A stretch of 38,175 bases of DNA from Desulfovibrionaceae bacterium (GTDB lineage: Bacteria; Desulfobacterota; Desulfovibrionia; Desulfovibrionales; Desulfovibrionaceae): assembly GCA_016932995.1 (NCBI GenBank), contig JAFGBU010000047.1:1-38175 (forward strand), written 5' to 3'. A program made the position numbers and the translations under genes. Of this stretch, positions 5,050 to 12,071 are shown one piece after another (within the stretch, counting starts at the first letter, position 1; the number at the start of each line of letters is the position of its first letter). The notes below the pieces were generated by a model that had not been told where the DNA came from, made no database searches, and saw nothing but the letters and a program-made list of their open reading frames with translations.

Positions 5050-6963
5050 CTAGAAGCTGCACTCGACCGAGCCGTAGAAGTTCCGGCCGGGCATGGGGTA
5101 GTAGCCCTGACCGTAGGCCAGGGTCGAGTACATGGCGTCCAGGAGGTTGTTCACCCCGGCGCAGAACGTAAGCATCTTGTATTCATAGGCCAGCCTGGCG
5201 TCAACGAGGGTGTAGGCCCCGATCTTGTCGTAGCGGTAGTTGTAGTAGTCGCTGCCGTTGAACTTGGAGCCCAGGTACGCGGCCTGGACCGAGAGCAGGA
5301 GCGGCTCCATGATCCGCCAGTCCGCGCCGACATTGATCTGGTGCCTGGGCACCAGGGGCACCCTGGCCCCGGACTCCTCGAACTTGGCCTCGATAAAGGC
5401 GTAGCCGGCCCGAAGCCCCAGGCAGTCCAAGGGCCGCCACCTGGCACCCAGCTCCAGGCCGTCGCGCACCGTGGTCTGGTCGTAGTTGTCGTTCTTTGTC
5501 CCGTCGTAATAGATCTCGTCCTCGGTGATCACCCGGTACAGGGCCAGGGAGAGCTCCATGTCCTCCAGGGGCCTGAGCCGGACCCCGGCCTCGTAGTGCC
5601 GGCCCTTCTGGGGCCTGATGTCCCCGTACTGCCAGCCCAGCTCGTCCACGTTGGGGCAGCGGAAGCTCGTGGCCCAGCTCGCGTACACGCTGCCAGCATC
5701 GCCCAGGGAGTAGACCAGGCCCAGGTCGTGGGCGTAGTTGTCCCAGGTGGCCTCGTCGAGGTTTTCCGAGCGCAGGTGGAAGTGGTCGAACCTCAGGCCC
5801 GCGCGCAGGCTCAGGTCGTGGGTCAGGGCCCAGCGGTTGTTCACGAACGCGCCGCTCTCCCGGACCACGTTCTTGAGCTCCGAGCCAACGTTCCCGGACT
5901 CGTAGTCCGAGACATAGTAGTCCACCCCGGCCTCGAACAGGTGGTCCCTGCCCAGCAGCCGGTAGTCGTTGTCATAGAGCAGGGAAAAATCCTTGGTCCT
6001 CTCGTCGATGCTGCTCTCGCCCCACCAGTCGTAGGGGTTCTCCCGGAACCGGGCCCCGAAATCGGCCCTCAGCCGGCCCCAGTCGTCCAGGTCCACGCGC
6101 GCCCCGAGCCCGGCCCGGTTGTCCGTGGTCCGGCCGTAGTCGTCGGGCCGGGTCGTCTCCTTGCGCCTCTCCCGGTCCTTGATCTGCTGGCGGTCCACGC
6201 TCCCGGGCAGGCCGTAGTAGTCGGAGTGGTGGAAGAAGCGGGTGGAGAGCTCCAGCCAGTCCGCGACCTCGAAGCCCAGGTCCGCGGAAAAGTCGTCCTT
6301 GTACAGCTGGCCGTTGTCCCTGAAGCCCTGGGAGTCGTGGGTCGCGGCGTTCAGGCTGAAGGAGAAGCCCTGTTTGCGGCCGCGCAGCCCGGCCTGGACG
6401 TCCGAGGTCCGATAGCTGCCGTACCCGGCGTAGACCCGGCCCTCCACGCCCTCCACGGGCCTGCGGGTGATGATGTTTATGACCCCGCCCACGGCGCCGT
6501 TTCCATAGATAACGCCGCCCGCGCCGCGCATGACCTCGATGCGCTCGACCTGGGACAGGTTGACGCAGGACAAATCCGGCCCGGAGGAGTCCACGGGATT
6601 GTAGCGCCGGCCGTCTATGAGCACCAGGACGTTGCTCGTAGCCGTGGCGCCCTGGCCGCGGATGTCCAGCACGGCCTTCTTGTCGGAGGCCAGGGTCTTC
6701 TGGACATAGACCCCGGCCTCCCGGGCCAGGAGGTCGACCATGTCGTTGCTCGGGGCCTTTTCGATGTCCTCGCGGGTTATGACCGTGACGTTTCTGGGGA
6801 TGTCGTTGACGTCCTCTTCCAGGCGGTCGCCCGTGACCACGACCTCGTCCATGTTGAAGACCATGGCCTGGTCAACGGGGCTGTTCCCGGTGGCGTTCTG
6901 TCCGGCCCACAGGCCGGAGGGGACAAGCAGGACCAAGACCATCAGGAGCTGAAAAAAACGCAT
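5050..6963 (-). CDS. btuB: TonB-dependent outer-membrane cobalamin receptor
   Basis: This is the outer-membrane beta-barrel that takes up cobalamin or other corrinoids using TonB energy. The 637-aa protein begins with a signal peptide (FFQLLMVLVLLVPSGLWA), followed by a TonB-box-like MDEVVVTGDRL. The plug domain contains VTVITREDIEKAPSNDMVDLL, DIRGQGATATSNVLVLIDGR and VERIEVMRGAGGVIYGNGAV. The barrel runs to a terminal phenylalanine (YGSVECSF), the usual signal for BAM insertion. ATG at 6963 is preceded by AAGGAGG, which is hidden in the hairpin at 6964-6999. The cobalamin riboswitch upstream supports the substrate assignment. Confidence 0.92.
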   Translation of the reverse strand: MRFFQLLMVLVLLVPSGLWAGQNATGNSPVDQAMVFNMDEVVVTGDRLEEDVNDIPRNVTVITREDIEKAPSNDMVDLLAREAGVYVQKTLASDKKAVLDIRGQGATATSNVLVLIDGRRYNPVDSSGPDLSCVNLSQVERIEVMRGAGGVIYGNGAVGGVINIITRRPVEGVEGRVYAGYGSYRTSDVQAGLRGRKQGFSFSLNAATHDSQGFRDNGQLYKDDFSADLGFEVADWLELSTRFFHHSDYYGLPGSVDRQQIKDRERRKETTRPDDYGRTTDNRAGLGARVDLDDWGRLRADFGARFRENPYDWWGESSIDERTKDFSLLYDNDYRLLGRDHLFEAGVDYYVSDYESGNVGSELKNVVRESGAFVNNRWALTHDLSLRAGLRFDHFHLRSENLDEATWDNYAHDLGLVYSLGDAGSVYASWATSFRCPNVDELGWQYGDIRPQKGRHYEAGVRLRPLEDMELSLALYRVITEDEIYYDGTKNDNYDQTTVRDGLELGARWRPLDCLGLRAGYAFIEAKFEESGARVPLVPRHQINVGADWRIMEPLLLSVQAAYLGSKFNGSDYYNYRYDKIGAYTLVDARLAYEYKMLTFCAGVNNLLDAMYSTLAYGQGYYPMPGRNFYGSVECSF

Positions 6964-6999: not shown

Positions 7000-7083
7000 C
7001 CTCGAGGGGGCGATGGCGGGGCGGCCCGCAAGGGGGCTTGGTCCCGCGTCGTCCAGGCTTTGCCTCGAAGCCGTTGCCCAAAT

Positions 7084-7262
7084 CCTTTCGGGCTGGTCTC
7101 CCGGCTCGAGGATCAGTCTACTCGCCGCGCCTTCCCACCCTGGCCTTGACGCCGGGCAGTGGCTTGATGCGGCTTTCGTCCCCTCTCACGGTTGCGGGCC
7201 AGCGCCGGTTTTCCACCGGACTTCCCAATTATCCCCGCTGGCGCGGGGACCCGAAAGGGCTC
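7084..7262 (-). promoter_or_regulatory. Cobalamin (AdoCbl) riboswitch
   Basis: The minus strand carries the conserved cobalamin-aptamer elements in order: GGGAAGTCCGGTGGAAAACC, then CGCTGGCCCGCAACCGTGAG, then the GCCACTGCCC and GGGTGGGAAGGCG arm, and the B12 box AGCCGGGAGACCAGCC (about 7091-7106). It lies in the 356-base gap between rlmN and btuB, and controls the btuB-cbiZ-btuFCD operon, which should be switched off when the cofactor is abundant. The rest of the gap, 7000-7083, links the aptamer to the expression platform. Confidence 0.93.
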
Positions 7263-7319
7263 ATCTGTCAAAGGCCAAGCCGAGCGGACAATACCGCAAG
7301 GCGCTGGCCTCAAAACTGT

Positions 7320-8381
7320 TCAGCACATCTGGGGGCCGCTGTCAACAGATGCGGCCTGGGCCCTGAGCTGCCCGCAGGCGGCCTGGATGTCCAGGCCCAT
7401 GCCCCGGCGCAGGGTCGCGGTCAGGCCCTTGTCCCAGAGCAGCCGCTCAAAGGCCAGGACCGCCTCCTGGTCCGGGGCCTGGTAGGGTATGCCCGGACAG
7501 GGGTTGAAGGCGATCAGGTTGACCTTGCACCTGCGTCCGGAGAGCAGCCGGGCCAGCTGCCGGGCGTGGTCCAGGGAGTCGTTTACCCCCTTGAGCAGCA
7601 GGTACTCGTAGGTGATGCGCTCCCTGGGCCTGAGCGGGTAGCGGTCCAGGCAGGCCATGAGCTCGGAAAGGGGCACCCGGGCGGCCCGGGGCATGATCCT
7701 GGCCCGCAGCTCCTGGTTCGGGGCGTGCAGGGACACGGCCGGCAGGGCCAGGCCGCTTCTGCCCAGGGCCTCCAGGCCCTCGGGCAGGCCCACGGTGGAC
7801 ACCGTGGTCCGGCGCGGGGAAAAGCCCAGGCCCAGGGGGTGGCCCAGGGCGCTGAGGGCCCTGAGCACCTCGTCCAGGTTCTGGAGCGGCTCGCCCATGC
7901 CCATGAACACCAGGTTCTTGAGCGGGTCCAGGCCGTGGTCCTCCAGGTACCTGCGGCCCACCAGGACCTGACCGAGTATCTCGGCCAGGTTCAGGTTGCG
8001 CTCCAGGCCCATGCGGCCGGTGTTGCAGAAGGTGCAGGCCATGGCGCAGCCGGCCTGGGTGGACAGGCACTGGGTGAACCGTCCGGGCCCGGGGATGAGC
8101 ACGCTCTCGATGAGCGCGCCGCCAAAGAGCCTGAGCAGGAACTTGACCGTGTTGTCGCGGCTGACCAGGGTCCGGACGGTCTCGGGCCAGACGATCCCGA
8201 CCCTTTGGGCCAGCCCGGCCCTCAGGTCCTTGGACAGGTTGGTCATCTCCGCGAAGTCCCGGCAGCCCTTTTGCCACATCCACTGCCAGAGTTGTGCGGC
8301 GCGGAACGCGGGCTGGCCGAGCTCGTCGCGGACCAGGGCCTCGAGCTCGGAAAATGTGAGGTTCAGGAGGTTCACGGCCAA
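7320..8381 (-). CDS. rlmN: 23S rRNA (adenine-2503-C2)-/tRNA (adenine-37-C2)-methyltransferase
   Basis: This radical SAM enzyme methylates A2503 of 23S rRNA, and A37 of some tRNAs, using a methyl-cysteine intermediate. The 353-aa length is typical. The iron-sulfur motif is C112-x3-C116-x2-C119 (GCAMACTFC). GMGEPLQN and STVGLP follow, and the resolving cysteine is C336 in GLDIQAACGQL. The RlmN N-terminal accessory domain is present (LTFSELEALVRDELGQPAFRAAQ). It ends 58 bases before the riboswitch, with no obvious terminator. It is the last gene of the minus-strand run that includes pyrB and pyrC. Confidence 0.96.
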   Translation of the reverse strand: MAVNLLNLTFSELEALVRDELGQPAFRAAQLWQWMWQKGCRDFAEMTNLSKDLRAGLAQRVGIVWPETVRTLVSRDNTVKFLLRLFGGALIESVLIPGPGRFTQCLSTQAGCAMACTFCNTGRMGLERNLNLAEILGQVLVGRRYLEDHGLDPLKNLVFMGMGEPLQNLDEVLRALSALGHPLGLGFSPRRTTVSTVGLPEGLEALGRSGLALPAVSLHAPNQELRARIMPRAARVPLSELMACLDRYPLRPRERITYEYLLLKGVNDSLDHARQLARLLSGRRCKVNLIAFNPCPGIPYQAPDQEAVLAFERLLWDKGLTATLRRGMGLDIQAACGQLRAQAASVDSGPQMC

Positions 8382-8424: not shown

Positions 8425-9756
8425 CTATCCGAGCCTTTCGGTGTCCTTGTACCTCTTGACGAACTCCCGGGCCTCGTCAGGGCCGGTCACGTCCCCGGCG
8501 ATCTGGGCCTTGAGCAGGGCCTCGCGCATCACGCCCACGGCCGGGCCGGGCCTGAGCCCGGTGGCCTGCATGATCTCGTTGCCGTTGAGCAGGGGCTCCA
8601 GGACCTCCTCGGGCATGTCCGCGCGTTCGAGCATCTTCATGTTGTGATTGAACTCGCGGTAGCTGCCGTTTCTGGCCTTGAGGTCGGCCCGGAATATCTC
8701 GATCAGCCTGGGGTACTCGTCCAGGCTCTTGAAGCGCCGGATGCCCTTGTCCGTGAGCATGAAGTGGAAGCGCATGTGGTGGCGGACCAGAAAGCAGATC
8801 AGGTCGATGTCCTCCTGGGGGAAACGCAGCCTGGTCAGTATCTTGCGCGTGACCTTGGCCCCGACCCGGTGGTGCTGCAAAAAGCTCCACTGGCCGTTGC
8901 TGTACTCCGCGGTGTACAGCTTGCCCACGTCGTGGAACAGGCAGGCCATGGTCCCGTACCAGTCATAGGGGAGCTCCTCGGGATAGCGGCGCATGACCTC
9001 CAGGGTGTGGTCGAGCACGCTCTCCTCGCCCTCGTCCGGGTTCTTGATCTGCCTGACCCGGGACAGGGCCGCAATCTCGGGGATGAGCGAGTGCATGATC
9101 TGGGAGTCGAAGAGCAGCTTGGCGAACAGCCACATGTTCTCGGCCTCGACCTTGCGCCACTCGTCCATGATCTCGGAGACCGAGACGTAGTCCGTGACCC
9201 GGCGCGCCCCGCGCACTATGGCCATCCAGGTGTTGGCCTCCACGGCCAGGTTGTAGTTGGCCGCAAAGCGCAGGGCGCGCACGGCCAGGACATAGTCGCG
9301 CTTCAGGGTCTGGTCGGGCAGGCCCTTGAGGCTAACAAAGCCCTCGGACAGGTCGGCGAAGCCCTCGTACATGTCCTTGGCCCTGGGGATCAGCGGGCAG
9401 ACCGAGGACAGCGGGGTCTCGCCCTTCTTCTCCAGCACCTTGAGCATCCTGGGCGTGAACAGGGCCACGGTCTCGTCCGGATGGGCGGCGTCGGCCACGT
9501 CGGCCGGGTAGAAGTAGTAGGTGACCCCGGCCTGGCCCAGGGTCCCGGTGACCGTCTCCTCGGCCGAGGCCTGGACCCCGGGGAACAGCCTGCGCAGGTC
9601 CTCCAGGCCCAGCTCGGTGCAGATGTCCAGGGCGCTTTCCCGGTCCGGGCCCTCCAGGGTCAGCTCCTGGAGCCTGGCGTTGACCACGTACGCGTCATAG
9701 CCGTTGCGCATGATGGTCTTGCAGATGCCCACCGCGTCCTTGAATGGCTGGCCCAT
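8425..9756 (-). CDS. HD-domain protein of the poly(A) polymerase/CCA-adding family with degenerate nucleotidyltransferase
   Basis: A 443-aa protein with the layout of a bacterial tRNA nucleotidyltransferase: an N-terminal NTase-like half, the helical segment RDYVLAVRALRFAANYNLAVE (which matches the RNA-binding-domain start of CCA enzymes), and a C-terminal HD domain with LDHTLEVM, FHDVGKL and RHHMRFH. The NTase active site looks lost. Where the family has GG-x-RD, this protein reads NARLQE, and where it has DxD it reads ALD (first acid replaced by Ala). The HD residues are intact, so a phosphohydrolase or nucleotide-binding role is more likely than CCA addition. ATG at 9756 is chosen for its CGGAGGAC site. 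An upstream ATG at 9825 overlaps the pyrC stop as ATGA and is possible. Function not known. Confidence 0.75.
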   Translation of the reverse strand: MGQPFKDAVGICKTIMRNGYDAYVVNARLQELTLEGPDRESALDICTELGLEDLRRLFPGVQASAEETVTGTLGQAGVTYYFYPADVADAAHPDETVALFTPRMLKVLEKKGETPLSSVCPLIPRAKDMYEGFADLSEGFVSLKGLPDQTLKRDYVLAVRALRFAANYNLAVEANTWMAIVRGARRVTDYVSVSEIMDEWRKVEAENMWLFAKLLFDSQIMHSLIPEIAALSRVRQIKNPDEGEESVLDHTLEVMRRYPEELPYDWYGTMACLFHDVGKLYTAEYSNGQWSFLQHHRVGAKVTRKILTRLRFPQEDIDLICFLVRHHMRFHFMLTDKGIRRFKSLDEYPRLIEIFRADLKARNGSYREFNHNMKMLERADMPEEVLEPLLNGNEIMQATGLRPGPAVGVMREALLKAQIAGDVTGPDEAREFVKRYKDTERLG

Positions 9757-9821: not shown

Positions 9822-11108
9822 TCATACAATTTTCCTGCCCCCGAGAAAATGGGCCCTGACCCGGCCCTCCAGGGTCCGGCCCAAGAACGGGGTGTTGGCG
9901 GCCTTGGAATGCAGGCTGTCCGGGCAGACCAGCCAGGACCGGCCGGGGTCGAAGAGCACGAAGTCCGCCGGGTCCCCGGGCCTGAAGCGGTTGAGCGGCA
10001 GGTCGAACAGGCCGCAGGGCGCCTCGGCCCACAGCCGCACCAGGTCCCCGGCCGTGAGCTCGCCCTCCCGGACCAGGGTCCAGGTCAGGGCCAGGGCCGT
10101 GTCCAGGCCGCAGACCCCGCAGGGCGCGGCGTCGAACTCGACCTCCTTTTCGCAGTCCGCGTGCGGGGCGTGGTCCGTGACCAAGATGTCCACCACCCCC
10201 TCGCGCACGGCCTGGCGCAGGGCCAGCACGTCGTCCCTGGTGCGCAGGGGCGGGTTGACCTTGGCCAGGGAGTCGAAGCCCGCGGCCCGCTCCTCGGTCA
10301 GCAGCAGGTAGTGCGGGCAGGTCTCGGCCGTGACCCTGACCCCGCGGGACTTGGCCCAGGCGATGAGCTCCACGGTCCTGCGGCAGGACACGTGGGCCAG
10401 GTGCACGGGGAGGTCCAGGTACTCGGCCAGGAGCACGTCCCTGGCCGCCTGGATGGTCTCGGCCACGTCCGGCTGGCCGTCCAGGCCCAGGCGTCCGGAC
10501 AAGACCCCGTCGTTGACCCCCGAGGCCGGGTTCATGGACGGGTCCTCGCAGTGGTCGATGACCCGCCTGCCCAGGTCCGAGGCGTACTCCATGGCCCGGC
10601 GCATGACCTCGGAGCTGGACACCGGAACCCCGTCGTTGGAAAAGGCCACGCACCCGGCCTCGGCCAGCTCGGCCATGGGCGCCAGCTCCCTGCCGGCCAG
10701 GCCCCTGGTCAGGGCCCCGATCGGAAACAGCCTGGGGCCGCGCGGCCAGGAGTCTTTCGCCCGGTCGAGCATGAGCTCGGTGACCGAGGCGCTGTCGTTG
10801 ACCGGGTTGGTGTTGGCCATGCACATGACGTTGCCGAACCCGCCGTGGGCCGCGGCCGAGAGCCCGGAGGCGATGTCCTCCTTGTACTCGTATCCCGGCT
10901 CGCGCAGGTGGGTGTGGGCGTCGGTCAGGCTGGGCAGGAGAACCAGACCCGAGGCGTCGATCTCCTCGGCCTCGCCGGCCGGGGTCTTCCCGGCCGCGGG
11001 CGCGAGCTCCAACACCTTGCCCCTGGCCACCAGGAGGTCCACCCTGCGGCCCTTGCCCCTGCCGTCCGGCAGGGTCGCGCCGCGCACCGCGAGTTGGCAT
11101 CCGGACAT
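9822..11108 (-). CDS. pyrC: Dihydroorotase
   Basis: The enzyme closes carbamoyl-aspartate to dihydroorotate, the third step of pyrimidine synthesis. The 428-aa class I amidohydrolase shows the metal-binding DAHTHLREPG (residues 63-72), MCMANTNPVND, VIDHCEDP, VHLAHVSC and the catalytic Asp in VTDHAPHA. Because the HxH pair and later His/Asp residues are kept, it should be active rather than the inactive PyrC-prime found next to pyrB in some bacteria. It lies 9 bases after pyrB on the same strand, which suits a joint ATCase-DHOase complex. Confidence 0.94.
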   Translation of the reverse strand: MSGCQLAVRGATLPDGRGKGRRVDLLVARGKVLELAPAAGKTPAGEAEEIDASGLVLLPSLTDAHTHLREPGYEYKEDIASGLSAAAHGGFGNVMCMANTNPVNDSASVTELMLDRAKDSWPRGPRLFPIGALTRGLAGRELAPMAELAEAGCVAFSNDGVPVSSSEVMRRAMEYASDLGRRVIDHCEDPSMNPASGVNDGVLSGRLGLDGQPDVAETIQAARDVLLAEYLDLPVHLAHVSCRRTVELIAWAKSRGVRVTAETCPHYLLLTEERAAGFDSLAKVNPPLRTRDDVLALRQAVREGVVDILVTDHAPHADCEKEVEFDAAPCGVCGLDTALALTWTLVREGELTAGDLVRLWAEAPCGLFDLPLNRFRPGDPADFVLFDPGRSWLVCPDSLHSKAANTPFLGRTLEGRVRAHFLGGRKIV

Positions 11109-11117
11109 CGGCTCCTC

Positions 11118-12047
11118 CTATTCGTTGGTCTTTCTGCTCAGGAAAAGGAACAGCAGGGCCATGCGCACGGCCAGGCCGCCGGCCACCTGCTCCAGGATCA
11201 GGCTCTCCGGGCTGTCGGCCAGATCCGAGTCGATCTCCACGCCCCGGTTGATCGGGCCCGGGTGCATGACAAAGGCGCCCTTTGCGGCCCGGTCCAGGTG
11301 CCTGCGGCCGAGGCCGAAGAGCCTGGCGTACTCGCGCAGGTCCGGCAGCAGCCCGGCCTGCTGGCGCTCGAGCTGGAGCCTCAGGCACATGACCGCGTCC
11401 ACGCCGCGCACGGCCTGGTCCAGGTCGCGGTGCACGCCGACCGGCCAGGTCTCGACCCCGGAGGGCATCAGGGTGCGCGGGCCGCAGAGCCTGACCTTGA
11501 CCCCGAGCCTGTCCAGCAGGATGACGTTGGACCTGGCCACCCGGCTGTGGGCGACATCGCCCAGGATGAGCAGGGTCCTGCCCTTGAACCCCCCCCAGGC
11601 CTCGGACAGGGTGAAGGCGTCCAGCAGGGCCTGGGTCGGGTGGGCGTGGCGGCCGTCCCCGGCGTTTATCACGCAGCAGTCCAGGCGCTCGGCCAGAAAC
11701 TGGGCCGCCCCGCTGGACGAGTGACGGATGACGATGGCGTCCGGGCTCATGGCCTGGAGGGTCAGGGCGGTGTCCTTGAGGGTCTCGCCCTTTTTCAGGC
11801 TGCTGCCGGTCGCGGACAGGGAAAAGGTGTCCGCGGAGAGCCGCTTTCCGGCCACGTCAAAGGAGGTCTTGGTCCTGGTGCTCGGCTCGGCGAAGAACAG
11901 GACCACGCTCTTGCCCCTGAGCGTGGGGACCTTCTTCACCGACCTGGAGTTTATCTCCCGGAAGTAGCGGGCGGTCTCGAACAGCGAGGCGACCTCCCGG
12001 GTCGAGAGCTGGGACACGTCCAACAAGTCCTTGTGCAGCCACTGCAT
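11118..12047 (-). CDS. pyrB: Aspartate carbamoyltransferase catalytic subunit
   Basis: The enzyme transfers a carbamoyl group from carbamoyl phosphate to aspartate, the committed step of pyrimidine synthesis. The carbamoyl-phosphate loop STRT (residues 56-59 in [13 protein letters not shown]) and the [11 protein letters not shown] motif are both present. I chose ATG at 12047 ([10 protein letters not shown]) because an AGGGGA site lies 7 bases upstream and the resulting 309 aa fits the family. An in-frame ATG at 12068 would add seven residues. No pyrI regulatory subunit is present, so regulation may depend on association with PyrC. Confidence 0.94.
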
Positions 12048-12071
12048 GTCGTCGTCCCCTGTGGGCATTGG

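Follow-up and report, generated by a model that had tools for sequence, protein, structure and literature searches.

A predicted polymerase-dead homologue of class II tRNA nucleotidyltransferases in the Desulfovibrionia

The closest described relatives of the protein reported here are the class II CCA-, CC- and A-adding enzymes that carry an HD domain, which have the same order of parts and the same fold. In such intact enzymes the tRNA is bound at its acceptor and T helices by the body and tail (PMC3925840), and split CC- and A-adding enzymes are known in delta-proteobacteria (PMC8208693). PcnB (TIGR01942) belongs to the same superfamily; the three PcnB proteins among our comparators likewise lack HD ligands, but they keep all transferase residues examined, which our protein has lost. 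Use of a nucleotidyltransferase-like fold without catalysis is exemplified by NF45/NF90, which are eukaryotic and are not known to have an HD domain; we saw no specific relation of the present family to them, their dimerisation domains (4at7-4at9) giving only weak Foldseek rows with E values of 0.06-0.13.

The window, i.e. the whole 38,175-nucleotide stretch of DNA that was analysed (contig JAFGBU010000047.1 of a Desulfovibrionaceae bacterium, GCA_016932995.1), encodes a protein that differs from the class II enzymes in having lost motif A, the acid of the third-carboxylate column and motif B, and in having gained new invariant residues. The original prediction saw in it a repurposed relative of the CCA-adding enzymes, and this is supported by the lost motifs, by two homologues with intact motifs elsewhere in the genome, and by a conserved clade of its own.

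Gene, fold and polymerase site

The gene for this degenerate class II tRNA nucleotidyltransferase homologue lies at 8425..9756 on the minus strand, as recognised from its open reading frame, its translation and hhalign against intact enzymes; it starts with an ATG at 9756, preceded immediately by GGAGG, and runs to 8425, encoding 443 residues. The head, or nucleotidyltransferase domain (residues 1-125; 9382..9756), is followed by the neck and body (residues 126-245; 9022..9381), the HD domain (residues 246-362; 8671..9021) and a C-terminal tail-like region (residues 363-443; 8428..8670), all on the minus strand. R163, E199, P226 and E227 of the neck and body, and the pattern PLLNG..IM..GPxVG of the tail-like region, are common to this protein and the intact enzymes. 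The only Pfam domain above its cut-off is HD (PF01966, 31.6 bits; cut-off 22), and the NCBIfam HDIG domain model is also passed (32.7 bits; cut-off 27.6). Matches to the NCBIfam CCA models fall far below their cut-offs, the closest being TIGR02692 (tRNA_CCA_actino) at 114.6 bits vs 438.8, and the PcnB model TIGR01942 gives 33.6 bits against a cut-off of 305.65. Above cut-offs, the protein is nameless in both collections beyond "HD domain", and it would be a mistake to annotate such proteins as CCA enzymes or poly(A) polymerases.

Membership of the superfamily by descent and fold is evident from full-length homology that takes in the head and neck as well as the body and tail. When 71 relatives were built into a profile, hhalign aligned it with that of 21 intact tRNA nucleotidyltransferases at probability 100 and E 1.2e-57 over 417 columns. 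The AlphaFold model of the protein has a mean pLDDT of 86.9 and shows the strand/helix pattern of the head. The structural comparison with CCA enzymes that had been suggested returned a fold match: going by title or molecule name, each of the 46 Foldseek rows at E<=0.001 is a CCA-adding enzyme, a poly(A) polymerase or a "tRNA processing enzyme". VIA-align superposed residues 121-441 on 3wfp_B (Z 22.8, rmsd 4.1, 286 aligned) and the whole protein on 3wfq_F (Z 23.9, 350 residues) with an rmsd of 18.2, this large value probably reflecting a head that is placed differently. Residues 271-437 match the solved tRNA enzyme 3wfo at 122.5 bits. The top structural chains (3wfo to 3wfs) carry the title "tRNA processing enzyme"; going by the structural paper cited in the opening (PMC3925840), we take them to be the Aquifex CC-adding enzyme.

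For residue counts we aligned, with MAFFT, 125 distinct family members (from 145 loci; two contain X and two are short) and 34 intact comparators; close relatives are counted separately, so that the numbers of sequences are not numbers of independent events. Of 37 loci that matched the family profile, those used were chosen for GG..R[DNE], and three were left out before counting: a locus that is partly masked, and two that encode longer proteins of 848 and 660 residues lacking the motif. That GG and R never vary among the comparators is therefore by construction, and no selection was applied at D42, D44, D107, R111, D112, D154 or R157; having been found by similarity to the family, the comparators lean towards HD-bearing enzymes, and only 7 of the 34 were classified by name.

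The prediction that NARLQE stands at the GGxxRD site is borne out by both the hhalign and the MAFFT alignments. Motif A of active enzymes (GG..RD and then DxD) is absent, G26, G27, R30 and D42 being replaced so that the protein reads N26 A27 .. Q30 and A42 L43 D44. No family member among the 125 has both GG glycines, and none has Arg30; the G26 column holds N in 117, S in 5 and G in 3, the G27 column A in 98 and other residues in the rest, and the R30 column Q in 117, H in 7 and T in 1. Chance does not account for the replacement, since N26 is conserved in 117 of the 125 members and Q30 likewise in 117. For ALD in place of DxD, the original claim holds in part: the first acid is lost, but the second is kept, so that not both acids have gone. 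The D42 column is E in 92 and A in 18 members, with others, vs D in 32 and E in 2 of the comparators; the D44 column is D in 111, E in 13 and A in 1, vs D in 34/34. Because ExD also occurs in two comparators (L116 and L144), ExD alone is no sign of a dead site.

The loss extends beyond the residues named in the original prediction. The column that we take to be the third catalytic carboxylate, which lies on the beta-sheet of the head, judging by the spacing given in PMC3925840, holds D or E in 29 of 34 comparators and an acid in none of the 125 members (R45 Y23 N18 H16 L12 F6 C2 S2 T1); in the window protein it is Tyr81. Motif B, D..(x)RRDFTIN, is missing too: D107, R111 and D112 are present in all 34 comparators, and in the family D107 is kept in 1 and D112 in 7 of 125. 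At the templating EDxxR the window protein retains Asp154 and has Leu for Arg157; both residues are present in 34/34 comparators, and the family columns are D63/N62 and mainly L65/R51, respectively. The R195 column is D in 100 and E in 16 members, with others.

A sequencing or frame artefact is ruled out, the same replacements being found in 125 distinct sequences. These alignments are best explained by a class II superfamily member whose polymerase is dead, a state that would have been fixed early in the class Desulfovibrionia, and we predict that the window protein adds no nucleotides.

The loss is accompanied by new invariants. Residues present in at least 97% of the family and in fewer than 30% of comparators include K13, R17, N18, T101, N167, D189, Y190, W200, V203, E206, F211, Y258, D265, W266, G268, Q294, R304, M333, G338, R350, N370, H371, N372, K374 and R411, with N370, N372, K374 and R411 noted as those of the tail-like region. 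Because they are spread over all domains, we read them as pointing to a function that is retained but changed. Residues of body and tail common to intact enzymes persist as well (R163 in 125/125 members, E199 in 124/125, R309 in 121/125), as do the shared glycines G392, G404 and G408 (125/125). The median net charge is -12 in the family vs +4 in the comparators; it is -9 for the window protein, and +12 and +11 for the Cca and the A-adding enzyme of the same genome.

Distribution, ancestry and neighbouring genes

Nearly every sampled genome of the Desulfovibrionia encodes the family, including cultured species such as Nitratidesulfovibrio oxamicus (L061). Among 297 genomes of the class, 269 match at E<=1e-10 (268 of these at E<=1e-150 and one at 9.5e-20), and 28 have no match to the family gene; among 59 related genomes, the window's own included, 49 encode a family protein, with identities of 46-100% and one partial copy. 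Sampled genomes without the gene are those with genus codes g2, g9, g34 and g35 and many of g52. In a phylum sample of 148 genomes, five that belong to the same taxonomic family score 749-793 bits; 80 of the 143 outside it match at E<=1e-10, none near those scores (best 156 bits). Of 25 such outside loci that were fetched, 24 have GG..R[DNE], and the remaining one has a masked stretch. A contig scan, which reaches close relatives only, returned 63 loci whose titles are Desulfovibrio-type or unresolved (delta-)proteobacteria; sampling throughout covers the window's own phylum. In two loci (L177 and L178, genus code g21) there is one TAA inside the matched stretch, which from the lengths is probably the gene's own stop codon. 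We found no description of the family in the open-licence literature, a scope that excludes subscription journals, and no relevant mention in the main text of a D. vulgaris fitness paper (PMC10102598).

In a quick tree of 17 family representatives and 36 intact enzymes, the family forms one clade (SH-aLRT 100), with a stem length of 1.86 changes per column. Which group is its sister is uncertain: the tree joins it to one comparator (L119) at support of only 80, and deep branches are weak.

The window genome (2.48 Mb, 99.5% complete) was also searched for a further intact cca gene, as had been proposed, and two homologues of the same superfamily were found: an A-adding-type protein on contig C46 (L001; NF041569, 871 bits, below the cut-off of 1440) and a Cca-type protein on contig C35 (L002; NF008137, 196.5 bits, below the cut-off of 451). 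By eye, both have GGxxR[DN] and DxD, and the Cca-type protein carries its own HD motif, LCHDLGK; in the quick tree, with its weak deep branches, neither is the family's sister. That the gene might be the genome's sole cca gene gone odd is ruled out by these two homologues. Of 59 related genomes, 54 have a match to the A-adding model NF041569 at E<=1e-200, and none has one above its curated cut-off; only such near-full-length matches were counted, because at E<=1e-5 the model also matches 14 of 14 control genomes. Three related genomes (G048, G035 and G052) have an extra class II enzyme with intact motifs (L135, L136 and L137) beside the degenerate protein, 25-28% identical to the window protein over nearly its full length.

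The predicted position between pyrC and rlmN is confirmed with matches above NCBIfam cut-offs, and pyrB adjoins as well. All on the minus strand, pyrC (dihydroorotase; 9822..11108; TIGR00857, 363 bits, cut-off 279) lies 65 nt upstream, preceded by pyrB (aspartate carbamoyltransferase; 11118..12068; NF002032, 383 bits, cut-off 263), and rlmN (23S rRNA/tRNA adenine methyltransferase; 7320..8381; TIGR00048, 365 bits, cut-off 290) lies 43 nt downstream. Across 113 distinct loci flanked on both sides, with related species tallied apart and hence not independent, pyrC is within 300 nt upstream in 53 and pyrD in 8, rlmN is within 300 nt downstream in 53, and pyrC or rlmN is present in 90; in 18 loci none of pyrC, pyrD and rlmN was found on the same strand in flanks of 1.5-6 kb. 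These counts come from tblastn, de novo clustering being cluttered by shadow ORFs in GC-rich DNA. Linkage to pyrC alone does not hold throughout; in other lineages the gene sits beside rlmN or pyrD. A defence role found no support, since PADLOC matched nothing beyond Cas3 HD models, and these weakly (best E 1.2e-05). Further along the minus strand, a cobalamin riboswitch (RF00174, 118.6 bits; 7074-7269) lies between rlmN and a gene for a TonB-dependent receptor (5050-6963) similar to receptors for vitamin B12 and siderophores.

HD site and selection

The HD motif had been described as whole, and in the window protein it is: FHDVGK with its flanking histidines is present, the metal ligands of the H...HD...D pattern are H250, H275, D276 and D358, and H295 and H296 complete the six positions. 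Within the family, all six are kept in 87 of 125 members and not in the other 38. At least one of the four metal ligands differs in 36 of the 125 members, requiring at least 13 changes, and at least one of H250, H275 and D276 in 25, requiring at least 7; both minima come from one quick ML tree built without the HD-ligand columns and are approximate, 34 of its 122 inner branches being open. In one Halodesulfovibrio clade H275-D276 has become S/C-N and H295-H296 has become F-C; other sequences titled or coded Halodesulfovibrio keep all six positions. Desulfomicrobium has L-N or H-N at H275-D276, the Desulfoplanes type has L-D there, and the Solidesulfovibrio type has H250Q. G278 and K279 of the motif are present in 125/125. 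Among comparators, 30 of 34 keep H250, H275, D276, H295, H327 and D358; one of the other four has E for D358, and the three that have lost several are PcnB by NCBIfam. At the level of sequence, the HD metal ligands are dispensable in several lineages.

Selection was gauged in seven groups as the median pairwise dN/dS (Nei-Gojobori, own script), absolute values being rough since pS is high (0.3-0.65). The HD-dead Halodesulfovibrio group has a dN/dS of 0.051 (0.052 in the HD domain), HD-dead Desulfomicrobium 0.085 (0.058), and the Desulfoplanes type, a single pair, 0.093 (0.082); the Solidesulfovibrio H250Q group has the highest of the seven, 0.170, with 0.082 in the HD domain and 0.276 in the head. 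The three HD-intact groups have 0.085, 0.086 and 0.124, with 0.065, 0.063 and 0.171 in the HD domain. HD ligands have been lost without visible relaxation of selection on the HD domain in the groups examined, and the substitution patterns show the whole protein still preserved by selection in those tested. The predicted model of an HD-dead Halodesulfovibrio protein, a kind of model that is insensitive to point changes, has nearly the same elements (mean pLDDT 88.0, pTM 0.61).

Readings of function

Because HD ligands are dispensable in several lineages while selection persists, the function common to the family should be binding. What is bound is most likely a tRNA or tRNA-like end, because body and tail hold the acceptor and T helices in intact enzymes and the shared residues persist; a partner protein would be the next choice. 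We accordingly favour, at a probability of roughly 45%, a noncatalytic protein that probably binds tRNA ends and whose accessory HD activity has been lost in places. The family's conserved work would be noncatalytic, with the surfaces of neck, body and tail still binding a tRNA or tRNA-like 3' end, or holding a partner protein; N26, Q30, Y190, W200, D265, W266, G268, R350, N370, N372, K374 and R411 may belong to the binding site, and the HD domain, where intact as in the window species, may retain an accessory activity, the hydrolysis of a phosphate ester. In favour of this binder we count the RNA-modifying gene rlmN adjoining in 53 of 113 loci. Against it, the acidity of the family argues against simple tRNA binding, the 87 of 125 members with all six HD positions may mean that HD catalysis matters in most members, and selection is less even than it might be, as the Solidesulfovibrio-type group shows.

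The alternative that survives best, possible and on balance unlikely, makes the protein an HD phosphohydrolase for damaged tRNA 3' ends: it would bind tRNA as a CCA enzyme does and remove a 2',3'-cyclic phosphate or a 2'/3'-phosphate, addition being left to the A-adding enzyme and Cca, and HD-dead lineages would since have lost the activity. HD activities of E. coli Cca were reportedly described by Yakunin in 2004. Since a CCA enzyme whose DLD was mutated to ALA, which resembles the ALD of the window protein, remained active as a phosphohydrolase, with its transferase affected (PMC10673834), such activity is likely, by analogy, where the HD site is whole, and all ligands are present in the window species. 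The phosphohydrolase suggested in the original prediction is possible for that species and weak as a family-wide function, given at least 13 ligand changes and the purifying selection that persists in the HD-changed groups examined. The constancy of these ligands in 30 of 34 comparators, with PcnB making up three of the other four, and the HD motif already present in the genome's own Cca also weigh against it.

It is doubtful that the protein is a ligand or partner sensor. In that role it would serve the A-adding enzyme, Cca, RlmN or the pyrimidine enzymes as a regulatory subunit, and its former nucleotide pocket might read CTP or some other nucleotide. Conserved neighbourhood with pyrC, rlmN and, in other lineages, pyrD would fit, as would new invariants in all domains and the 92 of 125 members that have an acid at each DxD position; however, neighbourhood alone is weak, the 18 loci without these genes on the same strand are exceptions to it, and the five loci of the HD-dead Halodesulfovibrio type have pyrC and pyrB downstream on the opposite strand, at a distance of 0.8-3.4 kb. 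No regulatory site was found. The same pair of acids, and ExD in two comparators, could also be read as an altered nucleotidyltransferase in which the ExD pair and the changed residues act on another substrate, but this is very improbable, since the losses of GG, Arg30, the third-carboxylate column and motif B, often with that of Arg157 as well, go together and the window protein lacks the first DxD acid. A decaying pseudogene, which the loss of one and sometimes two active sites might suggest, has a negligible chance against dN/dS of 0.05-0.17 in all seven groups and presence in 268 of 297 class genomes.

Returning to the noncatalytic tRNA-end binder, a bolder version, which we rate as decidedly unlikely, would see a class-wide, doubly degenerating enzyme that reads or holds tRNA 3' ends without catalysis, operon-coupled to pyrimidine (CTP) supply and RlmN, with both sites dead in, for example, one Halodesulfovibrio clade under strong purifying selection. 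More generally, the family probably does a third, so far unstudied job beyond its two active sites. The natural HD-dead homologues are ready controls, so the question is directly testable. If the family is indeed a noncatalytic binder of tRNA ends, it would show a polymerase scaffold turning into an RNA-binding or regulatory protein.
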